From Geothrix fuzhouensis (GTDB taxonomy: Bacteria; Acidobacteriota; Holophagae; Holophagales; Holophagaceae), in contig NZ_JANHMQ010000001.1 of NCBI RefSeq assembly GCF_024609325.1, positions 1,054,001 through 1,118,000 on the forward strand: a DNA stretch of 64,000 nucleotides, written 5' to 3'. The position numbers were made by a program, and so were the translations under genes. The notes beneath the pieces were generated by a model. It made no database searches. It saw only the letters and a list, made by a program, of their open reading frames with translations, and was not told the DNA's origin. This document shows positions 1-17,929 of this stretch, piece by piece. The first letter of the stretch is position 1. Each line of letters begins with the position of its first letter.

Positions 1-1654
1 CTTCCTTCTTCAGTTCATAGGCCCCGCGAAGGTGCTCAAAGTTGGGAAGTGAGGTAAGCACAGAGCGAACAACATTCTTTTCTGCCTCGGTCTTGAACAT
101 CGGCTCTTCGGCGGTAGGTAGCAACAATGTGTGCTGACCTCCGTCCGTGGCTTCAACCAGGGTTCCAAGAAGGCTCGCTTCGAGCACCGATGGCACTGTG
201 ACCACCTGTTGTGGTTTATCGGGGATGTCCTTCCCGATCACCAGGCCCTTCCTGATGATGGAATCAGGGTCCTTCGCATGATCCACAATGTCCTGGAAAC
301 GGTCGTGAGCCACGATAGTCAGGGTGTCTACCTCGGGCACACCTGTCCGCTTCCCGTAGGGCAAGCGCAGACCACGCCCAATGGACTGCTCCACCAGGGT
401 TCTGGAATTGGCAGCCCGCAGCGGGACGATGGTGTACAGGTTCCGAACGTCCCAGCCCTCCTTGAGCATATTCACGTGAACCACAATTTCCGTGGGTTCC
501 AAGGGGTCTTCCACCGCGAGCAGTTTCGCCACAACGTCTTCGGATTCCTCTCCACGTAGATTGGAATGGACCGTGATCACGCGGCTCTTGTAGCGCCCAT
601 CGAAGAAATCATCGTTTTGGATGATTGCCACTAATTCATTGGCGTGGGCGACATCCTGAGCCACGACGAGCATGAAGGGCTTCACATAGGGAACCCCATT
701 CTGCTTCGCGTAGGTGGTGAGCTCCACTTTGGTGAATTCGTGGATTCGAACTCCGTCCTCTAACTTCAGCTTTTCTAACTGCTTTTCGGTGTAGTTGGCT
801 GGATTGAAATTTTCCCGCGTGGCGACGGCGGGTTCCTTAACGAAGCCGTCCTTCATGGCATTCGCCAAAGAGTAGTCATAGATGACGTTCTTGAAGGGAG
901 TGCGGCTTCCTGCACTGCCTTCGACGAAGGGGGTTGCCGTAAGCTCCAAACCCATGATGGGCTTGAGCTCGTTGATCGCTTTCATGCCAGCGGCGGCTCG
1001 ATAGCGATGCGCTTCATCCATCAGCAGGACGAGGTCCGGTAGGCCCGCCAGATAGTCGAAATAGCTCTGGCCGATGTATTCCGCCAAGCGTTTGATACGA
1101 GGAGCCTTGCCGCCGCGAACTTCGCTGTTGATCTTCGAGATATTGAAGATGTTGATATGGATCGAATCCATGCCCGGTAGAGCCTGGACTTGCATCCCCT
1201 CTGGACGGTCCTCCACCCGGACACCGCGACCACTTTCGTAATTGTCGCCAGTGATGATTTCAGGATGATTGAAGGTGAAATCCGAGATGCCCTGGAAGAC
1301 ATACTTCGATGTTCCAGGCGTGAAGTCTGTGATCAGCTTGTTGTAGATCGTAAGGTTGGGCGCGAGGACAAAGAAGTGCCGGATGCCCTTGGCTTGGTAC
1401 AGGTAGGCGATGAAGGCACCCATGAGCCGCGTCTTGCCAACTCCTGTTGCCAGGGCGAAGCATAGCGAAGGGAAGTCGCGCTCGAAATCCTCCACCGTCG
1501 GGAAAAGGGCCTTGATCGCGTCCAGAGAGGCTATCGCGTCCTGATCCTTAGTCATGGGCAGAAGGTCTGCAACCTGCGCCAGAATCTTAAGGGATTCTGC
1601 CTGGGGAGCACGGAGGCTCATGCGCCCCACGAGGGCGTTCAGGGTCTTATTCAT
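1..1654 (-). CDS. res: Type III restriction system Res subunit, DEAD/DEAH helicase (partial, C-terminus off the left edge)
   Basis: The open frame runs from ATG at 1654 leftward through position 1 without a stop, about 551 residues. I translated it by hand. Near residue 70 is the Walker A segment ATGVGKTRL, then a DEAH box in the context MDEAHRY, then LTATPF (helicase motif III) and [10 protein letters not shown] (motif VI). These are the ATPase/translocase motifs of Res-type subunits, which move on DNA and cut together with Mod. The PD-(D/E)xK nuclease domain expected at the C-terminus lies outside the window, so cleavage competence cannot be judged. The start overlaps the stop of the methyltransferase gene by 4 bp (ATGA), so the two are translationally coupled as usual for mod-res. 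Confidence 0.85.
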
Positions 1655-3369
1655 TCTTCCACCTCCAGCCCGAGCGCCTGTGAGCCTTCGCTGGGCTTGG
1701 CTGTCTTCGGTGGCCTGCTTCGACGTTTAGTAACCCCTCCGGGCTCTGGCGTAGCCACGGGATCTAGGGGCGCGGCTCCAAGGTCAGAGGCGCTGGGAAG
1801 GTTCTGGATGTTCAAGCTGTAGTCGTCGTGCCCCCACTCGCATTTCGAAAGCACACTCTGGGGAATCTTCTTGAGGGTGAGATTCGGGTAGGACTCTGCA
1901 TCACCTCGGAATGCCCCACAACACACCAACAATGTCTGCTTCTCACCGACCTCTTCGGAGATCGCGCGAAGCTGAGTCTGGGTGAGGGACTGTGTTGTGA
2001 CGTAGATAAAGTCAGCCTCATTGCTATGTCCCTGCCTCCAGTAATGATCCTGGCTGGGCGCATAGGTGAACCCATGCAGCTTGCACATGGCCTCGGCGAG
2101 CATGCCCGAATTAAAATCCTTGCTGATTACCCAATTGCCCCATGGGTCCTTTTCAAGGAGAGAAGGTGCAAGGTGGAAATAGCGGAAGCCACCACCACCT
2201 TTCCAGTCCACTGCTTTGGTGATCCCGCCTGGATCTGCGCCATCTATGACCTTTTCCATGCGGGGAATTATGTGTGTTTGACAGTGTTCTCCCAACTCAA
2301 TCATGATCCAGCGGCGGCCCATTTTATGCGCGACTGCGCCGGTTGTCCCGGAACCCGCAAATGAATCTAGGATTAAGTCCCCAGGATCAGATGCAATATG
2401 AATAATTCTATTAAGAAGCAATTCGGGTTTTGGGGTAGAAAAAGGTGCTTTGAATAATGTTTTTTGTTCACCCATCGCACTCTGAGTACTTCCGGCTTCG
2501 CTACTAAGCCAGACGCTTCGGGGAACAATAGCTTCAGCATCGTTTAGAAACATCTTCAGGCGTGGTGCCTTAGACTGTCCATCCTTCCCCCAATACAAAA
2601 GATTCGCTGCCTCATTTTGGGCGTGGGTTTCCAGTCCGTACCTCCAAGTCAACGTGTCCGGTGGGAAGATCAATTCACCAGTGGTCGGGTTCTTAATGCC
2701 GTAATAAAGGTTTGGACGCTCGATTCGGGTCTTATTCCCAGTGTATGTAACCGAATTCCAGGGCCCGCGAGGGTCCTTGTCGGGGTTTTTGTAATAAACG
2801 TTCTGTTGTTCCCCGCGTGGAAGTCGATTTGGTTTCCAGGATGCTTTGTCCTTTGCATAGATAAGGACGGAATCATGGTCGGTACTAAAATACTTTGCAT
2901 CATTCGCCGGGGACACGCGTTTCATCCATGCAATTGTAGATACAAAATTAGCGCGTCCAAAAACCTCATCGCAAAGCACTTTCAGGTAATGCGCCTCATT
3001 ATCGTCAATCGTGATCCAAAGAGATCCATCCTTAGATAAAAGTCGTTTGATAATCTCCAAGCGATCACGCATAAGAGAAAGCCAGATGGAATGCTCCAAT
3101 CCATCGTCGTAATGGGTGAAGGCACTTCCTGTGTTGTACGGGGGATCGATGAAAACACACTTCACCGCCCCAGAAAATTCCTGCTCCAGCGCCTTTAGAG
3201 CCAGCAGGTTATCTCCGAAGATTAGCCTGTTGTCGAAAATGTCCGACTCAGAGACGCGTGTCTTGGCCTGGTGCGAGAGCCCTGAATCCTCCAGGAGGAT
3301 CCGTGGCTCCAGGCGGGGGCGCTGGTTTTTCCCGATCCAGGTCAGTTCCAGCTTATTTCGTGCAGCCAT
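1651..3369 (-). CDS. mod: Type III-like DNA adenine methyltransferase (Mod)
   Basis: 572 residues. The catalytic motif DPPYNTG is at 75-81 and the SAM-binding motif FAGSGTTG at 337-344. The catalytic motif preceding the SAM motif is the beta-class arrangement of type III Mod enzymes, which methylate adenine N6 and give the Mod-Res complex its sequence specificity. The segment between the two motifs (about residues 90-330, bases 2380-3100) holds the target recognition region and is visibly richer in A+T than the rest of the gene, suggesting domain exchange. The C-terminus (about 530-560) is proline/lysine/arginine rich. It overlaps res by 4 bp and follows the DUF3800 gene after 161 bp. The recognition sequence cannot be predicted from the sequence. 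Confidence 0.88.
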
Positions 3370-3497
3370 TGGTTTTCCCTAGCAAATGCGAAAGGTGAGG
3401 TGTCCGGAAGGAGGATAAAAGGTGAACCATTCGCTTGTGTGACCTGCTGAAGATCCCATACTATGGGCAAGTGGATTGGGAGTGCCCGATCGGCGCT

Positions 3498-3521
3498 GGG
3501 CTCCGGTGAAAGTCGGAGCCC
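3498..3521. other. Hairpin between the DUF3800 and mod genes
   Basis: Perfect 8-bp arms GGGCTCCG and CGGAGCCC enclose an 8-nt loop. The run TTCGCTTTTT follows on the plus strand, which is the wrong side for terminating the minus-strand operon. It could terminate an antisense transcript, or act as an RNA stem between the two minus-strand genes that sets mod expression or protects an mRNA end. It begins 9 bp after the DUF3800 stop codon in the direction of transcription. Confidence 0.5.
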
Positions 3522-3530
3522 TTCGCTTTT

Positions 3531-4292
3531 TCAGGGAAAGCACTTCAATCCCCAACCTTCGGTCTTGCCCTGGGGGCTCCGAAACAGCTTGGGTTCGATC
3601 AGATCCCAGGCACGGTTCGGCTGCCTGGGGTCCATGACATGCCGCCCAATGGGTCGAGCCACCAGGTCTGCAAGCTGCAAGCCCGAACAGTTCGTCTGCT
3701 TGTTCGCGAACACGACATCCAATGGAAAATTCTGCTGCCGATAGTTCTTCCCGTCGCAGATCCTCCGGAATTCCAACTCCAGATCGTCGTCCTCCTTCTT
3801 ACCTCGGCTCTCCACGATGATGTGCGTAAGCCGCCCATCCTGCCCCTTCTCTTCCAGGAACTTCACGACCCGTTCCAGGCCGAACTCCATGGAGAGTTTG
3901 TAGGGGTGATGCGGATGCACATACTTCGCCTTGTGCGCCTCCTTCTGGATGACGCAGGCGAGGATGGTGAAGGGCATCCCTTCCATCATGGCGTTCATGT
4001 CGCCCATGAAGGACTCCCGCTTGTCCTCTCGCATGAGCAAGGCGAAGGGGCCTTTGCGCTTCCGAATGTCATGCTCGTGGAGAATCACCTGGTCGTGGCC
4101 AAAATGCTTCATCTTCATGGCCTGAAGCTCGGGCACCGAATGGAGGCGGTAGTCGTCTTTCTTAACGATGCAGAAAGCGAGCACGAAGATCGGGAAGTCG
4201 GGATTGATCGACTCCAGGCTGTGATCTCCGCTCTCATCGACAAAAACGAGGTAATCACCAAAAGGAGGAGGGGGCTGGAATTCTGCTGTCAT
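3531..4292 (-). CDS. DUF3800 domain protein (predicted RNase H-like fold)
   Basis: 253 residues. Near the N-terminus is FVDESGDHS, the DxxG-type opening typical of DUF3800, a family often predicted to have an RNase H-like fold and common beside defence genes and on mobile elements. An acidic stretch (IVESRGKKEDDD) near residue 168 and LADLVARPIGRH near 210 fit the later conserved acidic/aspartate positions. No biochemical role is established for this protein. It lies 22 bp downstream of the SNF2 helicase gene and 161 bp upstream of mod, so it is most likely co-transcribed with them. The nearest AAGGAGG is 13 nt before the ATG, a long spacing. Confidence 0.75.
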   Translation of the reverse strand: MTAEFQPPPPFGDYLVFVDESGDHSLESINPDFPIFVLAFCIVKKDDYRLHSVPELQAMKMKHFGHDQVILHEHDIRKRKGPFALLMREDKRESFMGDMNAMMEGMPFTILACVIQKEAHKAKYVHPHHPYKLSMEFGLERVVKFLEEKGQDGRLTHIIVESRGKKEDDDLELEFRRICDGKNYRQQNFPLDVVFANKQTNCSGLQLADLVARPIGRHVMDPRQPNRAWDLIEPKLFRSPQGKTEGWGLKCFP

Positions 4293-4314
4293 GTGTAAGG
4301 TATGCCCTCCTTGC

Positions 4315-7131
4315 TTACATTAATGCCCATTGAATCATGAATAAATCGACAAGCCCATGCTGAGCTTTCAACTGATCCTCGATCTCAGTGATCAGGCCTT
4401 CTCGTCGTTTGTCGATCTGGTCCTGTTGTTCATAGAGTTCGCGGCGTAGCCGGTTCCGCTTGCTTTCCAGGTTCCGAACCGACTTCTCGGCCTCGACCTT
4501 CTCCAGGAGGGTGGCGCAGGCCTTCTTCGCCTGTTTCGCCTCCCGAATCTGCCGCCCAAGGTCCTGGAGCTCCCGCTCAAGGCTGAGCTTCAGATCCTCC
4601 GCCCAAGCATCCAGCTTGGCGGATTCCTCCTCGAAGTAGCTGGTGTTCCGCAGTTCGACCTCTCCCAGACGAGCCTTCACTTGGGGCTCAAACCGGGATG
4701 ACCATTCCAAGGGCAGTAATCCGCCCTGCAAGGGTTCCACCGTGGCTGGAAGCCCGAGTAGCTTTTCGCACTGCTCCTGGTCTAGCCATTGCCCATCGTC
4801 CGTCCGTCCTGCGAGCAGGAGGAATTCCTCGATCTGGACTGAATCAATGCGGAGCTTGGCCAAGCAAAGCTGACCGCCCTTCCCCCGAAATGGGTCCAAT
4901 AGGCTGACCTTCTTCCCTGCCCCGGAGAGATCGAATACCAATTTTTCAGACCGCAACACTCTGCCCAAGGCCTTCTGGAGAAGGCTTGAGGCCAGGGGAT
5001 GATCTTCTCGGTAGAAGGTGGCCCCTCGCTCGTCTGCCTCCGGCCACTGCATGTGGTAGTGACCACGGAAGGCACCAGAGGTGACTTCGAACCTGGGGCT
5101 GGCATCGAAAAAGGTCGCCTGACCATCAAGCTCTGTCTTGGTGAGATCCCAGAGCAGGGCTTTTCGATGGTCCAGCGCTTCTTTGGCCTTCTCCCTTCTC
5201 ACCCTCAACTTGGCGGCAACGTCCTCGTCGAAATTCTCCAGAAGGGTGGTCCTGGTCTGGTTCATCCGCGCCTGGATCTGGTCATCAAGCTCTGCCTGAA
5301 GCGCCTGGAAAGCCCCCTGAATCTCCTTCGGGGTACGGCATTCCTGGTAGACCTGGGCAATCCGCTTCTCGAAGTCCAGGCCCGATTCAAGGGATCCCAG
5401 CACTTCGTCGCTGGCCCCGAACACGCCATCGAACAGGCGGAATTTTTCGGAGAGGAGCTCGAAGACTCGCTGATCGGCCTCATTGCGTCGATTCAGGAAA
5501 TTCACCACCACCACGTCGTGCTGCTGGCCGTACCGGTGGCAGCGCCCGATGCGCTGTTCGATCCGCTGGGGGTTCCATGGCAGATCGTAGTTGACCACCA
5601 GAGAGCAGAACTGAAGATTCACACCCTCGGCGGCGGCTTCCGTAGCAATAAGGAGAGTGGCCTGGTCGCGGAATTCCTCAACTAAGGCCGCCTTCATGTT
5701 GACGGCCTGCGAGCCCTCAAGAATGTCCTGCCCGGCGTGGCGCTTCTTCCACCGCTGGAAGATCGCTCTGGGCTCCGGCTCGGTGTTCACGCCATTCAGC
5801 GTGACGATCTGGCCTGCATAACCCGCCTCCGAAAGCAGCTTCAACAGGTAGGCCTGTGTTCTGCGGCTTTCGGTGAAGATCACCGCCTTACGTGCCGCGC
5901 CGAGTTCCTGCGCACGGGCAAAGGCCGTTTCCAACGCCGTGATCAAGGCCGACCCCTTGGCGTTGTTCTGGATGGTCTCTGCCAGTTGCAGATAGGACCG
6001 CAATTCGGATAACTCGGCAGCAAGCTTGGCCGGATCGGCGTCCCGCTGGGCCTCGTCCTCCTCCCATTCGTCAGCCAGTTCTGGAAGCCCTTCGAAGTCA
6101 TCTTCCAGGGCCTTCTGCTGGTCTTCCAGGCGCTGCGCCATGCCCTTCAGGGCACCGGCGATGGCGAAACTGGAAGATGCCAGCAACTTTCTCAACACAA
6201 GTGTGATTAAGGCCCGCTGACTGCTGGGAAGCGCCACCAGATCGGGTCGCTGGAGATAGTCGCTGATGCGCTCGTAGAGAAGCTGTTCCTCGTCCGAGGG
6301 CGTGAAATCCTGGGTGATTGGAATTCGCTGGGTGTACCGGATGTACTCCAGAACCTGTTTCCGGAGGGTCCGGATGCAGAGGGGCTTCAGCCGATCCCGA
6401 AGACTCCGGTTTCGGAAGTCTTCGTTCGGTGCTCGAAGGAACTGTTCCTTGAAAGACTCCAGATCCCCGAAAACCCGATCATCGATCAGGCTCACCAGGC
6501 CGAAGAGCTCCAGGAGCGAGTTCTGGAGAGGCGTAGCCGTGAGGAGCAGCTTTCGATAGCCCTTGGTGGCATCGGCGATGGCTCTGGCGATCTTGTTGCC
6601 AGGTTTATAGACGTTCCGGAGCCGATGGGCTTCGTCCATGACGACCAGGTCCCATGGAACTTCGCGGACCTCCTTGGCCTTCAGTGCCGCGAAGTGGTAC
6701 GAGCAAATCACGACTTGCGCCTGGCCGGTGCGATTCGTATCGAAGGGATTCTGGGTCCCCTCCTTCCGGGCTTGGTTGAACGATTTCGAGTCAAGGACAA
6801 CCGAAGGCAGATAGAACTTCTCATCCAACTCCATTTGCCATTGTTTTCGGAGCGTGGCGGGAAGGATCAGCAGGATCCTCCGATGGCGCTCCGCCCATTG
6901 CTGCGATATCACGAGCCCTGCCTCGATGGTCTTTCCAAGCCCAACCTCATCAGCCAGGATGGTCCCCTTGGAAAGGGGCGACCTAAATGCGAAGAGCGCC
7001 GCGTCCACCTGGTGTGGATTGAGGTCTACACGGGCTCCAGAGAAGGACCTCGACAGGTTCTCCATGCTGTCCGAGGAGGACTTCAGTGTGAGCAGTTGAG
7101 CCCAGTAGTGGCTGTGGAACGGGGTTGTCAT
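4315..7131 (-). CDS. SNF2-family (RapA-like) helicase
   Basis: 938 residues. The two helicase lobes contain Walker A DEVGLGKT (61-68), the DEAH box at 166-169, LLLTATPLQNS (motif III), a motif V region ATEAAAEGVNL, and motif VI ending IGRCHRYGQ, which is the SNF2/RapA signature. The C-terminal third is acidic/basic and predicted coiled-coil (about 830-930), fitting a protein-protein or DNA-contact arm. Such translocases occur as stand-alone partners in several defence systems, for example DISARM DrmD. Here there is no DISARM drmA, drmB or drmC nearby. Instead it heads a block with DUF3800, Mod and Res. The gene starts 60 bp after the caspase gene ends. Confidence 0.88.
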   Translation of the reverse strand: MTTPFHSHYWAQLLTLKSSSDSMENLSRSFSGARVDLNPHQVDAALFAFRSPLSKGTILADEVGLGKTIEAGLVISQQWAERHRRILLILPATLRKQWQMELDEKFYLPSVVLDSKSFNQARKEGTQNPFDTNRTGQAQVVICSYHFAALKAKEVREVPWDLVVMDEAHRLRNVYKPGNKIARAIADATKGYRKLLLTATPLQNSLLELFGLVSLIDDRVFGDLESFKEQFLRAPNEDFRNRSLRDRLKPLCIRTLRKQVLEYIRYTQRIPITQDFTPSDEEQLLYERISDYLQRPDLVALPSSQRALITLVLRKLLASSSFAIAGALKGMAQRLEDQQKALEDDFEGLPELADEWEEDEAQRDADPAKLAAELSELRSYLQLAETIQNNAKGSALITALETAFARAQELGAARKAVIFTESRRTQAYLLKLLSEAGYAGQIVTLNGVNTEPEPRAIFQRWKKRHAGQDILEGSQAVNMKAALVEEFRDQATLLIATEAAAEGVNLQFCSLVVNYDLPWNPQRIEQRIGRCHRYGQQHDVVVVNFLNRRNEADQRVFELLSEKFRLFDGVFGASDEVLGSLESGLDFEKRIAQVYQECRTPKEIQGAFQALQAELDDQIQARMNQTRTTLLENFDEDVAAKLRVRREKAKEALDHRKALLWDLTKTELDGQATFFDASPRFEVTSGAFRGHYHMQWPEADERGATFYREDHPLASSLLQKALGRVLRSEKLVFDLSGAGKKVSLLDPFRGKGGQLCLAKLRIDSVQIEEFLLLAGRTDDGQWLDQEQCEKLLGLPATVEPLQGGLLPLEWSSRFEPQVKARLGEVELRNTSYFEEESAKLDAWAEDLKLSLERELQDLGRQIREAKQAKKACATLLEKVEAEKSVRNLESKRNRLRRELYEQQDQIDKRREGLITEIEDQLKAQHGLVDLFMIQWALM

Positions 7132-7191: not shown

Positions 7192-7941
7192 TCAGGCGAT
7201 AATGCCAATTGGGAAATAGGGGCCAGAGCGCGGTTTTGAAATCATTGGATTCTGGCGACCGCCACGTTTCTTGGTTACTAGGCCCACAGCAGCTTGATGA
7301 GCATCGGGTATGTCTAAAGAAGCATAATATTTATCTGTATCTATATCCTTTTGTTCATACCAACTCTGGACTGAATCAATCAACGATGATGAATAGGCTC
7401 CGCCCTGCTGTGAATCGTCTCCGGATCTCTCGCCGATGGAGCATCCGTAAAGGACTAAAAGTTCCTTCGGGCATTCAACAATTCCCTTATCGAAAGCTTT
7501 TCGACATCGTTCTGGATGGAGTTGTGGCATCCTTCTTGCCGCCTTTTCGATTAGGCTTTTTGCCACTGGGCGCTCATCGTAACTTTCGCGGCAACAATCC
7601 AGAACAATAGTCTGCCTAATGCTAGGAAGTTTTAGCTCAGAAGAATCGAAGTCTTCTCCGTTACGCAGAGAAACAATTGTTGATTTTGTTTTTTCGGAGT
7701 ACCACCCATGACCCGAGAAAACTAAAAATAAATAGTCCACATTACCGATGACTGAGAGCGTTGTTTGGAGTCGCATGGCAGTGGGACGGTCCAAAATACT
7801 AATTTCAGAATCGTACCAAAGACCGCCAATAGGAGATTTCAAAAAGCTTGAATAATTTTCTACATCACGAGCTACTCCCTCGCAATAATTCGAAGCACCG
7901 GCTTCACCAGGATTTGCAATAATTAATGCTTTGCGAGTCAT
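7192..7941 (-). CDS. Caspase-family (peptidase C14-like) protein
   Basis: 249 residues. The His of the dyad is H78 in FSGHGWY, and the Cys is C117 in LDCCRES, preceded by the hydrophobic strand expected in the caspase fold. The substrate-pocket region YGCSIGERSGDD follows near residue 166. Prokaryotic caspase-like proteases occur in anti-phage and regulated cell-death systems, where they cleave a partner after activation. There is no fused sensor domain, so the sensing function must lie in another gene. Its ATG overlaps the stop of the upstream membrane-protein gene (ATGA), making the two a coupled pair. Base composition is much more A+T rich than the flanking genes, pointing to separate acquisition. 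Confidence 0.85.
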   Translation of the reverse strand: MTRKALIIANPGEAGASNYCEGVARDVENYSSFLKSPIGGLWYDSEISILDRPTAMRLQTTLSVIGNVDYLFLVFSGHGWYSEKTKSTIVSLRNGEDFDSSELKLPSIRQTIVLDCCRESYDERPVAKSLIEKAARRMPQLHPERCRKAFDKGIVECPKELLVLYGCSIGERSGDDSQQGGAYSSSLIDSVQSWYEQKDIDTDKYYASLDIPDAHQAAVGLVTKKRGGRQNPMISKPRSGPYFPIGIIA

Positions 7942-8762
7942 CTGTTCTTCCCTTTATCTTGAGGGTTTTTTTCAACTTTCTCAATTAAACTCGGAGCCCA
8001 GCGCTCGCTGTACCCAGATACGATCGATGTAATAAATATTCCAAGATATGGAAACTCCGCCGAGCGCAACATTGGTACAACAGCACCAAGCCTGATCGCA
8101 CCGCCGACAATTACACCAAAAAGTCCACCGGCCATCATCCTTGCCAGGGCCTCTAGGACATGGAGTGATCTTGGAGCTTCACTCGTAATATTGGATTTCC
8201 CAATTCGAAATATCATAAACAGTACTGCTCCGAGCAAGCCGCCTACAAATGCCATCAATAAAATGGCTACATTTTCACCGACTCGTTCAATTATCTTAAT
8301 TTTAATAGTTATGCAGTAAATAGCGATAATAGCCATGATTATTGCAGACCAGCATGCGGTGCAAAGTTGCCAATATCGTGCCTTTTCAATATTTCTTAAT
8401 TCAATATATGCGATCGCGGAATCCAGCATTGTTTCAGCGTTTTCATAGTCACCTTTTAACGACCTAGCTATAGATTCTCCGACCATTCGTTTGAAATCAG
8501 TTCTTATGCGTTCATCATGGTGACTATTTGGAATGCACTCAGCCAAGGCTGCCCTATTAATTATTTTATTGTGCCTTGTGGGATCTGTCTGAATCCCTGA
8601 GTTATAGGAATCCATCGTCTTCCAATCAATATCGAAATGCTCATCAATGCAAACAATAAAATCATCATTATCCATAACCAAATGCCGTATATTCACTCCC
8701 GGAAGCTTGGGGCTTGTCTCAAAATTTGGCACTATTCTCTCCCATTGCATTAGTACCAACAC
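7938..8762 (-). CDS. Four-helix membrane protein paired with the caspase
   Basis: 274 residues (250-274 aa depending on start). An N-terminal soluble part (about 1-125) has no recognisable domain. Four hydrophobic segments follow at about 131-153, 164-186, 208-231 and 239-254, then a basic tail. I do not recognise a named family. The start is GTG at 8762 or ATG at 8750, with no strong ribosome-binding site for either. The 4-bp overlap with the caspase gene suggests stoichiometric production. Reasonable roles are a membrane-damage effector released or opened by the caspase, or an anchor/sensor for it. Neither is shown by the sequence. A+T-rich like its partner. Confidence 0.75.
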   Translation of the reverse strand: MLVLMQWERIVPNFETSPKLPGVNIRHLVMDNDDFIVCIDEHFDIDWKTMDSYNSGIQTDPTRHNKIINRAALAECIPNSHHDERIRTDFKRMVGESIARSLKGDYENAETMLDSAIAYIELRNIEKARYWQLCTACWSAIIMAIIAIYCITIKIKIIERVGENVAILLMAFVGGLLGAVLFMIFRIGKSNITSEAPRSLHVLEALARMMAGGLFGVIVGGAIRLGAVVPMLRSAEFPYLGIFITSIVSGYSERWAPSLIEKVEKNPQDKGKNR

Positions 8763-8822: not shown

Positions 8823-9911
8823 TCAAGGTTGCACCTCCATCGACGGCAACGTGTGTAAGTCATCAGGCAGGCGAAAATCAGTCAGGACCTGGTGCATGCG
8901 TTCTGCAACCGTTTCCCATTCACCTGACAAGTCGATCGTGCAGATCCGAACTCGATGCCCCGATAACACAACGTCTTCGATGAAATTGACCTCGACGGCG
9001 GGGTACACCAGCAGCCCTTCGATCCCTTGCCCAGGGCTTGTGGCACCTAGGTTATGGATGTAGGTCATCAACTGGTACAGATGTGAAGACCGGATCTTTG
9101 GCTTCTGACTCCAAAGGTTTGACTGAAGTGTTTTCCGGTAGAACTTGCATTCCACGACGACCACCCGTCCATCACCACGTAGGACGGCATCGGCCTGCAT
9201 TTCAGGCAGGAGATCCGGAGGGTTCGGGCAAATCCAATGGATCCGCTCTTGAGGCCGAACTTTCCAGCCATCAGCTTCAAGCGTCTTTTGATAGAACCTG
9301 GCGACGAAGAGCTCGAAGAGCTTCGCCATCTGCCGTTTGTCTCGGAGGAAGTCACGGAAATAGCGCTGCCCTGTCTCCTCGTTGATGAGGAGGTTTTCGT
9401 GTACCAGTTCACAGAGGTGCATGAGCAGCCGGTAGTGTGCATTGTTCCGGTGAAGGCGAACCTGGGCAAAGTGCGACTTTCGGATGTGCAGGGGGCTGAT
9501 GCCCTCCATCCGACGAAGCACTGAATGGACCGCTGTTCTATTGTCAGAGTCTAGGCCTGGATAGGCCCCAAGGCCCCTTAATGTCTCTTTCAGGATTCTG
9601 TTATGTAGGAGGTCGGGAAGGAATTCCTCGAAATCACACTGCACCTTGCCGTGTTCAAGGAGAAGGCGGCGGGTAGAAATCTCGAAATCGATTCTGCCTC
9701 TGATCGTGCTGAGCACATCTGATTGGGGAATGTAGCCCTGATCCATGCCGCGCCGAAGCAATTGTTGCGTTCCGTGGACCAGCATCCGGGCCAACAAATC
9801 TTCAACGCTCGGAAGATGCTCGATCCCCCTTGCAAGCTCCCTGGACTCCTCCAGGAGGTCCCAGGCGTAGCTAAGCAAGTAGTAATAGTTGCGGATCGGG
9901 ATACCGGTCAT
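8823..9911 (-). CDS. mcrC: McrC-family nuclease subunit of a modification-dependent restriction system
   Basis: 362 residues. The N-terminal half has the McrC pattern IRNYYYLLSYAW and the phrase DLLHNRILKETL. The C-terminal half holds a PD-(D/E)xK nuclease site with D241, E254 and K256, spacings of 13 and 2 that equal those recalled for E. coli McrC (D244, D257, K259). McrC joins an McrB hexamer, stimulates its GTPase and supplies the nuclease that cuts DNA with modified cytosines or related marks. The gene starts one base after mcrB ends (stop TGA 9915-9913, ATG 9911-9909), so the two are an operon. Full length for the family. Confidence 0.92.
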   Translation of the reverse strand: MTGIPIRNYYYLLSYAWDLLEESRELARGIEHLPSVEDLLARMLVHGTQQLLRRGMDQGYIPQSDVLSTIRGRIDFEISTRRLLLEHGKVQCDFEEFLPDLLHNRILKETLRGLGAYPGLDSDNRTAVHSVLRRMEGISPLHIRKSHFAQVRLHRNNAHYRLLMHLCELVHENLLINEETGQRYFRDFLRDKRQMAKLFELFVARFYQKTLEADGWKVRPQERIHWICPNPPDLLPEMQADAVLRGDGRVVVVECKFYRKTLQSNLWSQKPKIRSSHLYQLMTYIHNLGATSPGQGIEGLLVYPAVEVNFIEDVVLSGHRVRICTIDLSGEWETVAERMHQVLTDFRLPDDLHTLPSMEVQP

Positions 9912-9912
9912 C

Positions 9913-12375
9913 TCACAGGCCCTGCAAATCCTTTATCCATCGGTCTGATTTCTTGGGGTCATCGAACCAGTACTCTCTCAGTAGGGGAGCGATCTTGAAC
10001 CGAATGACCCGCTGATAATCCTCAGCGGAGTTGATGTCGCAGAAATAGCTGTGGCCGATGCTGAAGCCTGGTCCAAGGTTCGAGGTGTCCTCGACGATTT
10101 CCTTGTTCAGGCGCTTCATCTTCTGGATGATGTTCACTGCTAGGTCTTCGGGGCAATTCTCGGTGAGAGCGCTTTTGAACTCATTGCTCTCGAAGGCCGG
10201 AAGAAGATCTACATAGGAGAACCGGCGACGTAGCGCGTAGTCCACCACGGCCAGTGAGCGGTCTGCCGTGTTCATCAAGCCAAGGATGTAGACATTTTCC
10301 GGAACGAAAAACGTTTGACTGTCCTCTTGATAGGCGAGTTTCAGCGCGAATTCTTCTCCCCGCTTGTCATTCTCAACCAGCATCAAGAGTTCGCCGAAGA
10401 TCCTAGAAATATTGCCCCGATTGATCTCATCGATGATGAAGACATGCTTCTTAGGCGAACGCCTAGCATCGAGGCAGAACTTATAGAAAACACCATTCCT
10501 CAGGACAAACCCACCCTCGGGACGAGGCCGCAACCCTTGAACGAAGTCCTCGTATCCATAGGACTGGTGGAACTGAATCATGGCGACTTGCTTGGGGTCC
10601 TTAGTCTTCATCAGCGCGTAGGCGAGGCGCTTCGCGAAGAATGTTTTCCCGACACCTGGCGGTCCTTGAATGATCAGGTTTTTATCGCGCTCCCACTGCC
10701 CCAGCCACTCTTGGACCGTGGCTTCCCCCACAAAGAGCTCCTTCACCGCATCTTGAACGGTGTATTCGAGCGCCTCTTCATCTTCTGGCTCAACTGCTTC
10801 TACTTCTGAAACAGGATCAGCGCCAAGAATCGTATCGAACTCAGCCTTGGTGAGTTTATAGAGACTCCCCTGCCGGTTCCCCTGCACAGGCCCGCAGTCT
10901 GCCAATGCTGGCACTGCCTTGAGCTCCTGGAGGGATCGTGGCTTTTCCAGGTGACGGAGGATCTTGAAACGAATGCATTCACCCTCCTCAGCATCGACAT
11001 GAATCCCCTTGGTAATCTCCAAAAGACTGGTCACTTTTTGCTCAGGCGTCGTTTCGTATCCGATCACTAGATCACCCGGTTTGACCTCCTGGAAGCAGGC
11101 GTAGACCTGACGCTTGTTGTCTTTATCGTTGTGGGTTGTGTAGACCTGTTCCCCGCCGATCTCGCAACTAGCGACGCTCCAGATACCGGGGGAACAGTTC
11201 ATCCAGTAGTGCTTTGGACCATCTTCAACATCAACTTCGTCGGTCTTGATGCCGACAGTCGCAAGGATGGCGGCGACGGATTCCTTGTACCGGGTGATGT
11301 TCGTGAGGGCCTTGGTGGCGAAGCTTTCCCCATCCGGTAGAGTCCAATCCCCCTCGTGGATCCAATCCACGTCACGGACATTTGGGTACTCCGGACGGGT
11401 GGGGTCATGCCGGTAGCCACTTCGGACAATACCCACGCCAAGGATCTTACGATTTCCCTTCTTGGCAATGACAAGGTCACCTTCCTTCATAACACGGCAG
11501 AACTCCCAGGCGGCTCTGGCATCGTTGGTGGGCTCTACATCCTCCTTCGGATAGAGCACCTTGAGTTGCTGGAGGATCTCATCCTTCGTCTGGTAGGCGT
11601 CCAGCGGTCCAAGCAAGTCTCCACCGTAAACTGCGATGGATTGGCTTCTGCACTCCTCCCAGAATCTAGCCTGAGGTCCAGGAGCGAAGACCCAGATTTG
11701 CTGCCCACCCGATTTGGGCTTATCCCCAGCCTTCTTGGGGATCTTCGTTTCGAAAATCCAGCTTAGAAACTGATCCACTTCGAGGCCGATTGGTGCTCCA
11801 ATTCGAATGCCGACGACGCGTTGATACTCCTCGAAGAGAGGAACCATGGCAACGTTGAAAGCCGTGAATCTCTGGGGGAAATCCGCACCCTTTGGAAAGA
11901 TGGGATAGATCCCAAGGTATTTGGCAGCGTCCGTATCTCTCTGGTTCATGAATAGAAATTTTTCTGGAAAGAGTTGTCCGATCAATTCGGAAACAGCGCT
12001 AGGGCCAATGAACTTGCTTGCATAGGCTTCCTTGTCGCCCATGAAGGCTCGCATACGGTCTTCAACAGAACCCTGGCCATGAGCCAGAAATTCAAACGAT
12101 TCTCGATATTTTTCGATGGGGTAGTTCGGTTGGCCGAACGCTCGTGTTTTGGCCAGTTTTACGCTGTTGAATGAATGTAGCTGGTCGGCGAGCTCTTGAA
12201 AGTTCGGCCACTCGGCCTTCTGGAGGTTTTCAGGCTCAAAGAAGGCCTGTACGATTCGGTTGTAATCCAGGACGAAGGTCCGGTCCTTGAACCAAGATTC
12301 AGCCTGGGCAGCGAACTCTTTCATAAGCAATTCAAGGTTCGGACTGTTACCCGTGATAGGTGATTGCTCGGACAT
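9913..12375 (-). CDS. mcrB: McrB-family AAA+ GTPase with N-terminal EVE/PUA-like readers
   Basis: 820 residues. The motor has Walker A GPPGVGKT (571-578), Walker B IIDEINRGN (647-655) with the McrB signature continuing ISRIFGE, the sensor MNTADRS (701-707) and arginines at 716-718. The N-terminal 560 residues are the recognition part. Residues about 388-520 (starting KHYWMNCSPG, later PGDLVIGYET) look like an EVE domain, which binds modified bases. Residues about 226-375 (WVFAPGPQARFWEE, GDLVIAKKGNRKILGVG) look like an MrcB-N/PUA-related domain. The target is therefore probably DNA with a bulky or methylated base rather than a plain sequence. ATG at 12375 with an AAGGG upstream. Confidence 0.92.
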   Translation of the reverse strand: MSEQSPITGNSPNLELLMKEFAAQAESWFKDRTFVLDYNRIVQAFFEPENLQKAEWPNFQELADQLHSFNSVKLAKTRAFGQPNYPIEKYRESFEFLAHGQGSVEDRMRAFMGDKEAYASKFIGPSAVSELIGQLFPEKFLFMNQRDTDAAKYLGIYPIFPKGADFPQRFTAFNVAMVPLFEEYQRVVGIRIGAPIGLEVDQFLSWIFETKIPKKAGDKPKSGGQQIWVFAPGPQARFWEECRSQSIAVYGGDLLGPLDAYQTKDEILQQLKVLYPKEDVEPTNDARAAWEFCRVMKEGDLVIAKKGNRKILGVGIVRSGYRHDPTRPEYPNVRDVDWIHEGDWTLPDGESFATKALTNITRYKESVAAILATVGIKTDEVDVEDGPKHYWMNCSPGIWSVASCEIGGEQVYTTHNDKDNKRQVYACFQEVKPGDLVIGYETTPEQKVTSLLEITKGIHVDAEEGECIRFKILRHLEKPRSLQELKAVPALADCGPVQGNRQGSLYKLTKAEFDTILGADPVSEVEAVEPEDEEALEYTVQDAVKELFVGEATVQEWLGQWERDKNLIIQGPPGVGKTFFAKRLAYALMKTKDPKQVAMIQFHQSYGYEDFVQGLRPRPEGGFVLRNGVFYKFCLDARRSPKKHVFIIDEINRGNISRIFGELLMLVENDKRGEEFALKLAYQEDSQTFFVPENVYILGLMNTADRSLAVVDYALRRRFSYVDLLPAFESNEFKSALTENCPEDLAVNIIQKMKRLNKEIVEDTSNLGPGFSIGHSYFCDINSAEDYQRVIRFKIAPLLREYWFDDPKKSDRWIKDLQGL

Positions 12376-12411: not shown

Positions 12412-12651
12412 TTATCTCATCATCCACCAGAATCCGAGGGTCGTGCCAGGGATTAGAAGGACCCAGGCGCACCCGCGTAGGCCGAAGGTGGTTCGGCTAT
12501 AGATTCGGTTGTAGGCAGCTTTGCGCGGATTGGTGAGCCAACCCCAGCCGCGAGGAGCCTTTAGGCCCATATTTTGACGAATGAACCTTGCTGGGCTGGT
12601 ACGGGCAGCGATTCGCTTCTTCAAGGAGGGGGTTCTCAAGGCGATCTTCAT
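12412..12651 (-). CDS. Small basic protein with one C-terminal membrane-like segment
   Basis: 79 residues from ATG 12651, chosen because GGAG sits 5-6 nt upstream; a longer frame reaches 12666. The core phrase ARTSPARFIRQNMGLKAPRG followed by WGWLTNPRKAAYNRIY is low-complexity-free and very basic. The end is hydrophobic (WVLLIPGTTLGFWWM). I have an impression of seeing this type of short protein near restriction genes in other genomes but know no name or function. It sits between mcrB (36 bp) and the RloC-like gene (126 bp), all on one strand. Its conserved-looking aromatic/basic core argues for a real gene rather than a chance frame. Confidence 0.6.
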   Translation of the reverse strand: MKIALRTPSLKKRIAARTSPARFIRQNMGLKAPRGWGWLTNPRKAAYNRIYSRTTFGLRGCAWVLLIPGTTLGFWWMMR

Positions 12652-12777
12652 GAGAGCTCCACACATTTAGTCAAAGGGGGGAAAGATTTCGTCATTGTCC
12701 CACCATGGAATGGACAATTCTTGTCGTTTCTTGGGCGGAATGAGGACTGTAATCGCCGCATTTGATTTTTCTGCCCC

Positions 12778-14988
12778 TCAGCCTCCCGGATTACCCATCA
12801 TCATCTGGTAATGCCCTTCGTGTTTCATCTTGTAAAAAATAGCCTCGAATACCTTTAGATAAGCCTCGACCATGGCTTCATCGATCGAAACATATAAGTC
12901 ATCGTGAGCGAAATGCGATCCATCGTGAACCCAGGAGACCAGGGAATTACAGAGGAGTTTTTCTTTCCCTTCAAACATCTCGCAGATCTTATTCAGATCG
13001 ACCCTACCTAGGATTTTGAAGTAGTTTTCCAGTATTCGCCGAAGCGTGTTCTGAATGGTCAAATTGGTTCGATCAGCCTTGCGAACTTCTGCCCAGAGAA
13101 GTTCGTAGGATGTCTTGATCGGGTTGGACGGATGATTGTCGAATTTGGAAATATCTCCCGGCTTACGAACCACCCAGAAGGTCTCTTCGCATAGGCAGAC
13201 TGCCTTGTCCCGTCTGGGATTGAACGTGACTTCCTTGTGGAAATATACGTTGTGGGTCAGGACAAACACTTGCTTGAGGTGCCCAACCCCCGTCCGAACT
13301 TCTTCAAAAAGACCCTTGATAAGACTGCCAACGATGAACAAGATGTCGCTATCCAAACTGGATACCGGGTCGTCAAACACGACCACACGATCCATCGTCA
13401 TGCCGCTTTCCGAGTCGCTTCCCTTCAGGAGGTGATAGAAATATAGGAAGGTAACAAAGGTCTTTTCACCTTCGCTTAATGTCGCCTTTGCATCTGTCCC
13501 GTCTGAACGGATTAGTTTGTAGGAGGTTCCACTTGCCGCCTTCGCGAGCGAAAACCCCTTGAATCCGAATGAGGAAAGCAGGGCATTGATTTCATCTATG
13601 GTTGGCTGAACGCTGGTCGTCTGCTTTTCCAATTCCCGAATTTCAGCCTCCTTCTTTGTCGATTCGCTCCTCGCGGTCACGATCTGCGAAGACATTCCGG
13701 CAATCGCCTTATCCAGGGCCTCCTTGGTCTGTTTGTACGTCACCAAGTAATCCTTGAGTTCGTGGTCAAGGAGGAATTTCCATACTTGCGCCGTGAGCTT
13801 GGTGCGCTCCTGCGAGAGGTTCGCCACCATCCGGTTATGCTCACCAATCAAGGCGTTTGTAGAATCGATGATCGTCTTGAGCGCTGCCACGACATTGCTG
13901 ATCGATTCGAGTTCGATAACCTGGCTTGGCTCCTTCTTCTTCTGGCTGATCCTCTGGTAGTTGATGGTGAAGATGGAGTCGAGAAGCTCCTTCTCCGTTT
14001 TCAGCTTCTCCGCATCCAAGAATCGGGATGGGGCGGCAAGAATGGATGCGACCTGCTGCTGGAGCCGAGCCGAGTCTGTTTTGTAGTTCGTTACGAGGTC
14101 GTCGATGGCCTTGCTTTCGTTTTCAAACGTCTCATCGAAGTATTCGTTCAAGCTTTTAGCAAACAAGTCCGTCGTGTTCTGCTGACAGAACGGACAGACC
14201 CCTTGATTCAAGTCATAGAACGCACGACCTTCGCGAACCCAGTCACTATTGGCAAGTTTCCTGATCATCGCCGCGATATCAACATCATCTTTGCCAATGA
14301 CCCGCTTCCCAAGAATGGGGTTGGTTTCATGCGCAATCGATTTGGTCGCATCTAGGCCAGGGATCAACTGCTCTGTGGTAGGAGTTGTGCCAAAAACGGT
14401 TGCGGCTCGCTTCTCCAACTCCTCCAGTGTTGATAAAGTTTCGGAGTTGTTGGACAACTCCAAAACCAACTTTCCTTTGAACTTCTCCGCGCTTCCGCGA
14501 AACCCTTCGAATGCGCCTTGCAGCTTTGGATCATGCTTCTGCTTCTGCGCCCAGCATTTGTCCTTAAACTCCGACTCCAATGCAGCAAGCTCACCCTTCT
14601 TGCCACCCGTTCCATCCGCACCCTGAAGGCTGTTGGTCAGTGTTTCGACCTTCTTGGTGAGAGCATCAAGCTCATCTTTCGCGGTCTCAATCTTGGTGAG
14701 GGAGTCTGCCTGTTTCTCTCCAAGGGTGAATACACCTTTTAGGTCAGTCGATGGATTGAAGTTCCTGTCCACGAAATCGCGGTTGTAAACCATGGGTTGA
14801 AGAGGCGTGCCGCGTTTCCAGGTCACCTTGCAGGTCGGAAATGCTCGCTCATCTGCAATGACCCGGCTGATCGTGGTTTTGCCGGTGCCATTCGCTCCAT
14901 AGATGAAGTTGAACTGCGAAAGCCCATCCAGGGTTTCGGGCAGGGCTCCGAAAGTCGCTGTGCCTGCAATGCTGATCGCTTCAATCAT
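12778..14988 (-). CDS. RloC/PrrC-like AAA ATPase, putative anticodon nuclease
   Basis: 736 residues, AAA_13-type. Walker A GANGTGKTT is at 31-39, the ABC-like signature LSEGEKT at 504-510, Walker B VVVFDDPVSSLDSD at 535-548 and the H-loop LTHN at 577-580. Between the two halves lies a long coiled coil interrupted by CPFC at 265-268, a zinc-hook CxxC as in RloC and Rad50. The C-terminal tail has R650-x3-E654 and H688 (also H692), spacing close to the PrrC anticodon-nuclease triad (R320, E324, H356). Family knowledge: such proteins sense DNA damage or an inhibited restriction enzyme and cut tRNA anticodons, stopping phage translation. Whether this one does is inferred. It ends 126 bp before the small protein gene and begins 56 bp after the Argonaute gene. 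Confidence 0.82.
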   Translation of the reverse strand: MIEAISIAGTATFGALPETLDGLSQFNFIYGANGTGKTTISRVIADERAFPTCKVTWKRGTPLQPMVYNRDFVDRNFNPSTDLKGVFTLGEKQADSLTKIETAKDELDALTKKVETLTNSLQGADGTGGKKGELAALESEFKDKCWAQKQKHDPKLQGAFEGFRGSAEKFKGKLVLELSNNSETLSTLEELEKRAATVFGTTPTTEQLIPGLDATKSIAHETNPILGKRVIGKDDVDIAAMIRKLANSDWVREGRAFYDLNQGVCPFCQQNTTDLFAKSLNEYFDETFENESKAIDDLVTNYKTDSARLQQQVASILAAPSRFLDAEKLKTEKELLDSIFTINYQRISQKKKEPSQVIELESISNVVAALKTIIDSTNALIGEHNRMVANLSQERTKLTAQVWKFLLDHELKDYLVTYKQTKEALDKAIAGMSSQIVTARSESTKKEAEIRELEKQTTSVQPTIDEINALLSSFGFKGFSLAKAASGTSYKLIRSDGTDAKATLSEGEKTFVTFLYFYHLLKGSDSESGMTMDRVVVFDDPVSSLDSDILFIVGSLIKGLFEEVRTGVGHLKQVFVLTHNVYFHKEVTFNPRRDKAVCLCEETFWVVRKPGDISKFDNHPSNPIKTSYELLWAEVRKADRTNLTIQNTLRRILENYFKILGRVDLNKICEMFEGKEKLLCNSLVSWVHDGSHFAHDDLYVSIDEAMVEAYLKVFEAIFYKMKHEGHYQMMMGNPGG

Positions 14989-15044: not shown

Positions 15045-16562
15045 TCAAATGTAGTATTTGAAAGGCAAGGGATGCCCGGAATCCTTGGCGAACGGACCAG
15101 CCGTAAGAATTTCACCCACGGCATCCGCAAATTTTAGGGTTACGGGCACGCCATCGGCAAACGTGCAGGAATTGTAGTTCAGCTTGGTGAGAGCGAGAAC
15201 ATCCGCCATAACCGTTCGGATGTCCGAATCACCTCGGCAGATCTGGATGAATATGGGCTTCGGGACTTCCCGTCCTGGATAGGTTCGAAGGCGCGGTACC
15301 ATGCCCTTCGTCCAGAGAAAGCCGGACTTCTCGTTCACCAGATAGGCTGTCCCACGGAGAACAGGATGATCGCCGGGGCGGAATAGCTTGATCGCGGCAG
15401 AAGGGCGAATCTGGACGCCAACGACCTTGGTTTCGCTGCCCGCTCCCTCCATGAATCCGGACCACTCCTCGTCACGAAGGGAGATCTGGCCGTGCAGGAA
15501 CAACTCCTTAGGAGATTTTCCATTTTGCTTTCGATAGGCCTCGATGCACATGGACACGATTTCTTTGGCCGACTTCTTGTCTAAGTGAAAGTCCCCTCGC
15601 TTCTCATGAAACCAAGGGCCAACGGCACCTCGGAATACCACGCCATCTCCCGAGTCCATGAACATTTGCGCCGCACAGCAGGCGGTCCTGGTGTCCGCCT
15701 CCCGCTCCATCTGTTTGAAGACCATGCCGATGTAGCAAACCCCGTCACGGGCTGCTCCCAGCTTCCAGGGACGCCCACCGGACTTGTAGTAGACAGCAGT
15801 CGCAAGGTTCCAGGCGATGGCCGATTCCAGGGTTGAGTCTGGGCAGAGCGGTTTGCCAGAAGCCGAGACAAGATCGGCTTCGGCGATCTTGATTTCCCGG
15901 ATGATCTGAATAGGAACCAAGTGCGGCAGAAGCCGAGCCTTCAGTTGATGCCTGAAATTGGCCTCGTACGTGTATTCCTGAGCCAATTCCTTCATGTCTT
16001 CGAATAGGAACTGTTCAGTCGCGGACTTTCGGAGATCCATTTTGCTCAGCCGGTTTGCCGGTTGGACCTTCTCACTTGTTGGGACCTGGGATTGAGGCCG
16101 ACAATAGGAATACACTTCTTCCGGAATGAGCACACACCAGATTGTGGGAGTGATATCCTCGTCCATCCTGGCCTGAAGGATCTTCTCAACGTAGAGATCC
16201 GCCGTCTGAAATACCCGCTGGTGTTTGTCAGCATTGTGAACTCTGCGGCTGATCTCATCCGCAGGGATCTCAAGCTCAAGCACGGGGTTCGAATCCCAGA
16301 CCGTCCTGAACACTGATTCAAACCCAGGGAAAAGTGGGCGAGCGGTCGCGCCAGGTGGGCCATAAACAGGTCCCTGAACTCGCGTCACCCACTTCTTCAT
16401 CCGATCAATGCAAGACCTGGGTCCAACCGCTGCCCACTGGATCCTGCCAATGGCCGGATCCTCCAGCGGACCAAACAAGGTGAGCCCATCCCTTGGGTCA
16501 AGGGTTGCCTGACCATGGCGGAACAGCAGCGACGGCTCGGGGATGTGGACCAGTTCAATCAT
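15045..16562 (-). CDS. Short prokaryotic Argonaute (MID-PIWI), SPARTA subunit
   Basis: 505 residues, the length of short pAgos without PAZ. The C-terminus has the PIWI ending pattern LTKLNYN...VTLKFADAVGEILTAGP. The strand that would carry the first catalytic aspartate reads GVCYIGMVFK, with no acidic residue, as in catalytically inactive short pAgos. In characterised SPARTA systems the pAgo uses a small guide RNA to detect invading plasmid or phage DNA and activates the TIR partner to destroy NAD(P)+. The GC-rich gene overlaps the upstream TIR-APAZ gene by 4 bp, the usual SPARTA layout. No guide-producing nuclease is encoded nearby, also usual for the family. Confidence 0.9.
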   Translation of the reverse strand: MIELVHIPEPSLLFRHGQATLDPRDGLTLFGPLEDPAIGRIQWAAVGPRSCIDRMKKWVTRVQGPVYGPPGATARPLFPGFESVFRTVWDSNPVLELEIPADEISRRVHNADKHQRVFQTADLYVEKILQARMDEDITPTIWCVLIPEEVYSYCRPQSQVPTSEKVQPANRLSKMDLRKSATEQFLFEDMKELAQEYTYEANFRHQLKARLLPHLVPIQIIREIKIAEADLVSASGKPLCPDSTLESAIAWNLATAVYYKSGGRPWKLGAARDGVCYIGMVFKQMEREADTRTACCAAQMFMDSGDGVVFRGAVGPWFHEKRGDFHLDKKSAKEIVSMCIEAYRKQNGKSPKELFLHGQISLRDEEWSGFMEGAGSETKVVGVQIRPSAAIKLFRPGDHPVLRGTAYLVNEKSGFLWTKGMVPRLRTYPGREVPKPIFIQICRGDSDIRTVMADVLALTKLNYNSCTFADGVPVTLKFADAVGEILTAGPFAKDSGHPLPFKYYI

Positions 16563-17929
16563 GGACCCTCGACTTGATTAAGGGTGGCCTCCTCGAAAGC
16601 CGGGTCCTCGGGTGGATCCTCATCCCTCTTGAGCGATTCCTCGGAGTAGGAAAGGGGGCTTCGGAATTGAATTGGTGTGATGGGAACATCGAAGGACAAG
16701 GACGAAGAAAGGCGCACCAGAATGCTTTTCCCGTCGTTCTTGTTGGCCAACCATTGCAAGCATGCAAGCTGGCGGTCGCGCCATTCCGCATTCCACCAAT
16801 CTTTGCACGCGGATCGTCTTGCGGCATGGAGCTTCGCAGCAGAGGAAAGGAGGGTGCTCCCGTTCGTGGTCGCCAGGACATGGGGATACAGGGCCAGCAG
16901 AAGGAACGGATCGATCCGAACCTCAGCGCTCAACCCGTAATGCCACTGGTTCTCCTTCAACTTCCCGATTAAGGTTCGTCGTCCCTTGAAACCCGAATTC
17001 TCGAAGGGCACGAACTCTTTACCCTTGAAGTGGGTCCGATTGAAGTATCGGCAACGCTTCTTGCTCGCCATTTCATGGAGCGCCAACCCCGCATCGGACA
17101 TGGCTCTATCCCATGAAACTCTGAGAACCCGCAAGAGCGCGAATTGGCACTGCTCCCCGTTCAAGGGAGCATCTTGAATGCTCCCAGCAAGGACATCTTT
17201 GGTGGCGTATTGGGTTGAATCGACCTGGGTAAGTCCCAGTTCTTCCGCAGTCGCAAAGGACAAGGTGGATGAACCGATCCGGTGCGCAGGAAAGCGAAAA
17301 CCCATCCGCGAGTTCTGCTTGATTTTATCCGTGTGAAGGAAAACTTGGCTGGGGAGATCTTCGACGGGAAGCCAGTTCGAAAGCAGGACTTCAGGTTCGT
17401 GCTTGACGATTTCCTCGCCCAAATGATTTGCGTCCCACCAGGATCGGATGGTCGAGGCATTGAACTTCGCTTCGTCTCTCGGCACCGTGTCTTCATTCAG
17501 TTTCTTGAGTAGCTTGGCAAGTCCCATAGCCCAGTTTCCATGGAAATCAATGCCATTCAAGCGATGGATCTGGATGCTGAATTCGCTGAAAGGAAGATCA
17601 TCGATCCGGATCGGGATAATGAAATCGTGGATCGAAATCTGCCGTGCGACGGTAAGAGCAACTGCCAATTCGTTCAAGGCACCTTGCTTAGTCTTGGAAG
17701 CTCTTGAGGCAACAAACAGGAACTTGATGGTTCGATCCCGGATCGCCGATTCGATATCAACCCAGAAGTCCTCGCCACCAATCAACTTGGTCACATCAGA
17801 CCAAACCGCGTATCCCTGAAGACTTAGCTGAAGGCTGAGCCACTGCGTGAACTCGTTATCCTCTGGGTTGGCGTGGCTGATGAAAATCGTGTCTCTCATT
17901 GCTTCCATGCGAGTGGCAGCTTCCTTCAT
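16559..17929 (-). CDS. TIR-APAZ protein, NADase effector of SPARTA
   Basis: 456 residues. Residues about 11-150 form a TIR domain: DTIFISHANPEDN strand/BB entry, YAVWSDV, and FWVDIESAI, with E60 as the likely catalytic glutamate. The remaining 300 residues are the APAZ domain, which docks on the MID-PIWI protein in place of N-PAZ. The TIR domain hydrolyses NAD(P)+ once oligomerised by guide-target-bound pAgo, killing or arresting the infected cell. The start is given as ATG 17929, but ATG 17899 (residue 11) better matches where homologues begin and has GGAAG just upstream. This is the promoter-proximal gene of the defence run; 186 bp without a gene separate it from radC. Confidence 0.9.
   Translation of the reverse strand: MKEAATRMEAMRDTIFISHANPEDNEFTQWLSLQLSLQGYAVWSDVTKLIGGEDFWVDIESAIRDRTIKFLFVASRASKTKQGALNELAVALTVARQISIHDFIIPIRIDDLPFSEFSIQIHRLNGIDFHGNWAMGLAKLLKKLNEDTVPRDEAKFNASTIRSWWDANHLGEEIVKHEPEVLLSNWLPVEDLPSQVFLHTDKIKQNSRMGFRFPAHRIGSSTLSFATAEELGLTQVDSTQYATKDVLAGSIQDAPLNGEQCQFALLRVLRVSWDRAMSDAGLALHEMASKKRCRYFNRTHFKGKEFVPFENSGFKGRRTLIGKLKENQWHYGLSAEVRIDPFLLLALYPHVLATTNGSTLLSSAAKLHAARRSACKDWWNAEWRDRQLACLQWLANKNDGKSILVRLSSSLSFDVPITPIQFRSPLSYSEESLKRDEDPPEDPAFEEATLNQVEGP

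Follow-up and report, generated by a model that had tools for sequence, protein, structure and literature searches.

An RloC-family protein, predicted to be an anticodon nuclease, among the defence genes of a mobile island in Geothrix fuzhouensis

A gene lying beside McrBC in Geothrix fuzhouensis was described in a first-pass annotation as a zinc-hook ATPase carrying a PrrC-like anticodon-nuclease triad, and as a possible back-up for McrBC when a phage inhibits it. This raises the questions of which family the protein belongs to, which residues would form its active site, and whether it serves McrBC, another neighbour, or none. The window analysed here is a stretch of 64,000 nucleotides of contig NZ_JANHMQ010000001.1, to which coordinates refer unless otherwise indicated.

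The gene (12778..14988, minus strand, as are all features of its product given below) is real and intact, and starts with ATG to encode 736 residues, as first described. Its product matches the Pfam family PF13166 (AAA_13) over residues 11-718 (641.6 bits, E 2.7e-192) and the PADLOC candidate model PDC-S06 over residues 1-733 (976 bits), and more weakly the PADLOC models for PrrC (E 3e-13) and for LmuB of Lamassu. Taken together with residue conservation, a PrrC profile match and a Rad50-like structure model, these matches support the proposed zinc-hook ATPase with an anticodon-nuclease domain, and the product can be assigned, on sequence grounds, as a full-length RloC-family protein composed of a Rad50-like ABC ATPase, a CPFC zinc hook and a predicted C-terminal nuclease domain of the PrrC/RloC type. 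The family is already known, being present in PADLOC under the name PDC-S06, and the Geothrix protein is a sound yet ordinary member of it. A single copy is found in its own genome. Among the bacterial and archaeal genomes scanned, 80 relatives were found that share 42-71% identity along almost the entire protein, and an additional copy (49% identity) in a genome of the same genus brings the relatives to 81. A phage protein annotated as RloC (L101) shares 28% identity in the alignment.

The ATPase motifs are split by a long insert, with Walker A (GANGTGKTT, residues 31-39, 14872..14898; G31 and K37 invariant) on one side, and the ABC signature LSEGE (residues 504-508, 13465..13479) and the Walker B/D-loop VFDDPVSSLD (residues 537-546, 13351..13380), both recognised by motif and conservation, on the other. 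The switch histidine H579, in LTHN (13252..13254), is present in all 81 aligned sequences. Within the predicted coiled-coil insert lies the CPFC hook (residues 265-268, 14185..14196), whose letters are as first reported and whose cysteines are kept in 80 (C265) and 81 (C268) of the 81 aligned sequences. An AlphaFold2 model of the full protein (pLDDT 83.8, pTM 0.53) places long helices on either side of the hook (residues 94-160 and 286-457), and its head matches those of Rad50 and SMC proteins, with Z up to 17.3 for Rad50, while also resembling the ATPases of Lamassu and of the retron protein PtuA.

The C-terminal domain (residues 624-736, 12781..13119) is predicted to be all-helical, of the PrrC/RloC type, and is a proposed HEPN RNase. 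The first-pass annotation had read a triad R650/E654/H688 in it, of which the first two residues stand, R650 (13039..13041) being kept in 80 and E654 (13027..13029) in 79 of 80 relatives. The histidine does not, since H688 (12925..12927) is replaced by Asn in 54 of the 80 and by Gln in two, leaving His in 24. The conserved histidine is H692 (12913..12915; 79 of 80), which follows the invariant S691, present, like R651, in 80 of 80. When the protein was aligned by profile with eight PrrC homologues from Enterobacterales (L092-L099), among which the Arg, the Glu and the Ser-His pair are invariant, R650 and E654 paired with PrrC R286 and E290, and S691-H692 with PrrC S324-H325; this comparison gave an E value of 2.5e-9 and a probability of 96%, with the triad in register. 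In RloC, the triad has been published as R-X3-E-X36-52-His, often with Ser before the His, and mutations of the Geobacillus kaustophilus protein identified R692, E696 and H737 as required (PMC2610378). The Geothrix residues R650-X3-E654-X37-H692, with S691, follow this pattern and are kept in 79-80 of 80 relatives, whereas E654-X33-H688 falls outside X36-52. H688 was thus rejected as the catalytic histidine on conservation and on the PrrC alignment, and the correct triad, as judged from these alignments, is R650/E654/H692. The spacing and architecture, first called PrrC-like, are those of RloC, and H688 was presumably picked owing to its likeness to the shorter PrrC spacing. Lack of conservation in close homologues, named beforehand as an argument against the triad, is true of H688 and false of the corrected one. 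In one relative (L061), Arg takes the place of the catalytic histidine (GSR), and its nuclease is possibly inactive.

By themselves, such motifs are weak evidence, because shuffling the last 150 residues yields the spacing first proposed in 2% of cases and the RloC motif with Ser-His in 1.2%, and shuffling the whole protein yields a CxxC somewhere in 7%. It is their conservation in relatives, together with the profile match, that makes the triad and the hook significant. Modelled alone, residues 624-736 form an all-helical bundle (pLDDT 83.7, pTM 0.78), for which Foldseek returned no match under E 0.001. With a second structural aligner, five HEPN toxins were among the top seven rows, weakly at Z 3.7-4.3, which agrees with the published assignment of PrrC and RloC nuclease domains to HEPN (PMC3710099), without proving it. 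Residues 687-701, around H692, are of low confidence in the full-protein model, and a sequence search for a solved PrrC or RloC structure found none. HEPN RNases act on many kinds of RNA (PMC3710099), and the head resembles the Lamassu and PtuA ATPases, so one may ask whether the protein is a Rad50/SMC-like DNA-defence ATPase whose RNase cuts RNA other than anticodons, for example mRNA or rRNA. We hold this to be decidedly unlikely, since the active site lines up in register with that of PrrC, and the two relatives that have been studied, PrrC and RloC, are anticodon nucleases.

With regard to the neighbourhood, the genes on the minus strand run in the order TIR-APAZ-like protein, short pAgo, RloC, a small ORF, McrB, McrC, a membrane protein, a caspase-like protein, an SNF2 helicase, DUF3800 and a methylase. 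McrB, with an EVE domain (9913-12375), and McrC (8823-9911) do lie downstream of RloC on the same strand, within 8823..12375 (minus strand), as had been noted, yet McrB is 402 bp away, beyond an 84-residue ORF (12412-12666) that matches nothing in Pfam, PADLOC or NCBIfam and is separated from RloC by 111 bp and from McrB by 36 bp. The nearest neighbour is instead a SPARTA-like pair (15045..17929, minus strand) consisting of a short pAgo (15045-16562; PADLOC pAgo_I, 640.7 bits) and a TIR-APAZ-like protein (16559-17929; Aga_TIR-PNTD1-PNTD2, 410.3 bits), whose genes overlap by 4 bp and of which the pAgo gene lies 56 bp upstream of RloC. This short gap, the shared strand and a similar GC3 (0.626 against 0.642) could make RloC the third gene of a SPARTA operon, that is, an additional effector switched on by the TIR/pAgo complex. 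Such an arrangement seems very improbable, as neither TIR nor pAgo was found near the 81 RloC relatives, and the pAgo relatives in the phylum, examined over flanks of about 1.5 kb, had no RloC nearby. A limited literature search found no paper linking RloC to SPARTA.

Further downstream, a type III-like restriction-modification (R-M) system (1651..7131, minus strand) comprises a DrmD-like SNF2 helicase (4315-7131), DUF3800 (3531-4292) and an N6/N4 methylase (1651-3369), and the ResIII subunit of the system is encoded immediately beyond the left edge of the window (L085:14916-17654). Some relatives carry RloC and a DUF2130 gene at the place that DUF3800 occupies in this four-gene, R-M-like system. 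The caspase-like (Peptidase_C14) gene, in the region 7192-8762, overlaps the putative membrane-protein gene by 4 bp; this pair is probably a separate acquisition, because its GC3 (0.37-0.39) is much lower than that of its neighbours (0.56-0.76). Mobile-element genes are also present, coding for a tyrosine integrase (23710-24948), a conjugative coupling protein, RadC, ArdC, SSB, a RepB-like protein and a serine recombinase. The ArdC-type anti-restriction protein (ArdcN and zincin domains; L085:10162-11055) is encoded left of the window on the same apparent element; an rloC-ardC linkage has been reported in 2 of 73 cases (PMC2610378). The search for an attachment site gave as sole long exact repeat the T-arm of two tRNA-Ser genes, which is uninformative. 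On this mobile island, with its several defence systems, the RloC gene is probably a piece of cargo.

The 81 relative loci, many of them on short contigs, were then compared for their neighbours. Within 5 kb of RloC, type I R-M genes occur in 16 loci and a type III-like Mod or Res in nine; 25 of the 81, or about a third, have one or the other; in six relatives, HsdS overlaps RloC by 4 bp. Among the 107 genes situated within 400 bp of RloC relatives, the Pfam families include specificity subunits (12), DUF2130 (11) and ResIII (9), while McrBC is absent from the families represented at least twice, so that at most one of these neighbours could carry the McrBC domain. Phmmer searches with the McrB, McrC, TIR and pAgo proteins of the window found no counterpart in the available flanks. 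Mapped on the tree, the R-M partner labels require a minimum of 20 changes, against a mean of 23.4 after shuffling, and DUF2130 requires 8; the former is nearly equal to the shuffled mean, and RloC therefore swaps partners freely.

These comparisons bear on the back-up role first proposed, in which RloC would be held silent by McrBC as PrrC is by its restriction enzyme, and freed by phage anti-McrBC factors. Its basis is the position of RloC on the same strand and in the same defence island, 402 bp from McrB, and the precedent of PrrC with type I R-M. The proposal transfers the logic of PrrC, which requires a type I enzyme, to a genome apparently devoid of one: no HsdM_N match was obtained in the Geothrix genome (97% complete), which led us to reject a type I system acting in trans and makes a PrrC-style guard of such a system unlikely. 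Given in addition the lack of McrBC in the flanks of relatives, the intervening ORF and the internal DNA-responsive switch of RloC, whose response to a break inducer in Acinetobacter baylyi persists in R-M mutants and does not require the R-M genes (PMC3874168), we consider guarding of McrBC the least probable of all the readings weighed here.

A tie to the type III-like system of the island, for which RloC would be a second line when R-M is blocked or cutting, has more in its favour. RloC is found in or beside orthologous systems in four relatives (L006, L023, L014 and L036), and the same system is complete in the Geothrix island. In L006 and L036, RloC has DUF2130 on one side and, on the other, Mod or Res of systems whose helicase and methylase are 50-53% and 59-63% identical to those of the island; the order in L006 is helicase, DUF2130, RloC, Mod and Res, with 59% identity for Mod and 53% for the helicase. 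In Geothrix, however, the system is 5.6 kb away, with McrBC, the membrane protein and the caspase-like gene in between, and the majority of relatives have a different partner or no partner, with label changes scarcely below the shuffled value, so that this tie is also quite unlikely.

With regard to DUF2130 (PF09903), its gene is no more than 133 bp from that of the RloC homologue in 11 of the 80 relatives (L006, L023, L027, L028, L029, L031, L034, L036, L044, L051 and L071), and it occurs without RloC on two plasmids. The one example scanned had no PADLOC match, and a D...E-x-K pattern seen by eye is suggestive of a PD-(D/E)XK nuclease, with which RloC may form a pair made of a nuclease and a Rad50-like protein. 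Other RloC homologues are near SbcD-like nuclease genes (L014, L038, L075 and L116, the latter on a Caulobacter plasmid and also with an SMC-family ATPase gene nearby); such neighbours are consistent with DNA-end biology.

The family, the domain anatomy, the conserved motifs, the relation to PrrC and the lack of a conserved partner are what the present analysis establishes. As the anatomy is that of RloC and no partner is conserved, we regard as likeliest, and indeed as probable, that the protein is an autonomous RloC-type anticodon nuclease bringing about abortive infection upon activation by DNA ends, and carried as cargo of a mobile element. For the DNA-end trigger, the control by the zinc hook and the cleavage of tRNA, we infer from the characterised proteins of G. 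kaustophilus and A. baylyi: in RloC, ATPase activity with linear DNA turns the nuclease on, the zinc hook is inhibitory, and the wobble nucleotide is excised (PMC2610378, PMC3874168), the natural substrates in A. baylyi being tRNA-Glu and tRNA-Gln (PMC3874168). By analogy, the Rad50-like head with its coiled coil and hook would detect DNA ends or DNA damage, whether from the ends of a phage genome, from breakdown of host DNA or from cuts by restriction systems nearby; ATP hydrolysis would set the C-terminal RNase free, and the R650/E654/H692 site would cleave the anticodon loops of tRNAs, perhaps with excision of the wobble nucleotide, so that translation would halt and the infection abort. 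Whether the protein is fully autonomous is less certain, given that about a third of its relatives lie beside R-M genes. One unlikely reading would make RloC an effector of last resort common to the entire island, fired by linear DNA that McrBC or the type III-like system supplies through breaks. If true, it is DNA ends that would couple DNA restriction to translation shut-off, rather than one R-M enzyme holding RloC physically silent; a trigger consisting of ends made by neighbours would also explain why RloC lands beside many kinds of R-M.

For mutagenesis, the active-site assignment is corrected, with H692, and not H688, as the histidine. Since partners are freely exchanged among the 81 relatives, adjacency to McrBC says little. 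The family had been correctly spotted at first, with one active-site residue misassigned and the partner deduced from adjacency alone.

Among known systems, PADLOC PDC-S06 covers the protein over nearly its full length, with no difference found. Rad50 and SbcC share the head fold, the coiled coil and the CXXC hook with it, but they use the associated Mre11 nuclease, whereas the Geothrix protein carries an RNase-like domain at its C-terminus. PrrC has in common the ABC motifs and the C-terminal anticodon-nuclease motif, in register, but is smaller (about 350-420 or about 341-416 residues, against 736 with an insert and CPFC) and is devoid of coiled coil and zinc hook. PrrC sits in type I hsd loci, most of the eight homologues adjoining HsdS- and HsdM-like proteins as judged by eye, whereas no hsd genes were found in the Geothrix island. 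The closest likeness is to RloC of G. kaustophilus and A. baylyi ADP1, with which the protein shares the split ABC ATPase, the coiled coil and the CXXC hook (PMC2610378, PMC3874168) and, according to the published motif definition, the triad with its optional Ser (PMC2610378). Its length falls within the 658-897 residues published for RloC (PMC2610378), and, as at the Geothrix locus, RloC as a rule keeps to no single R-M type.
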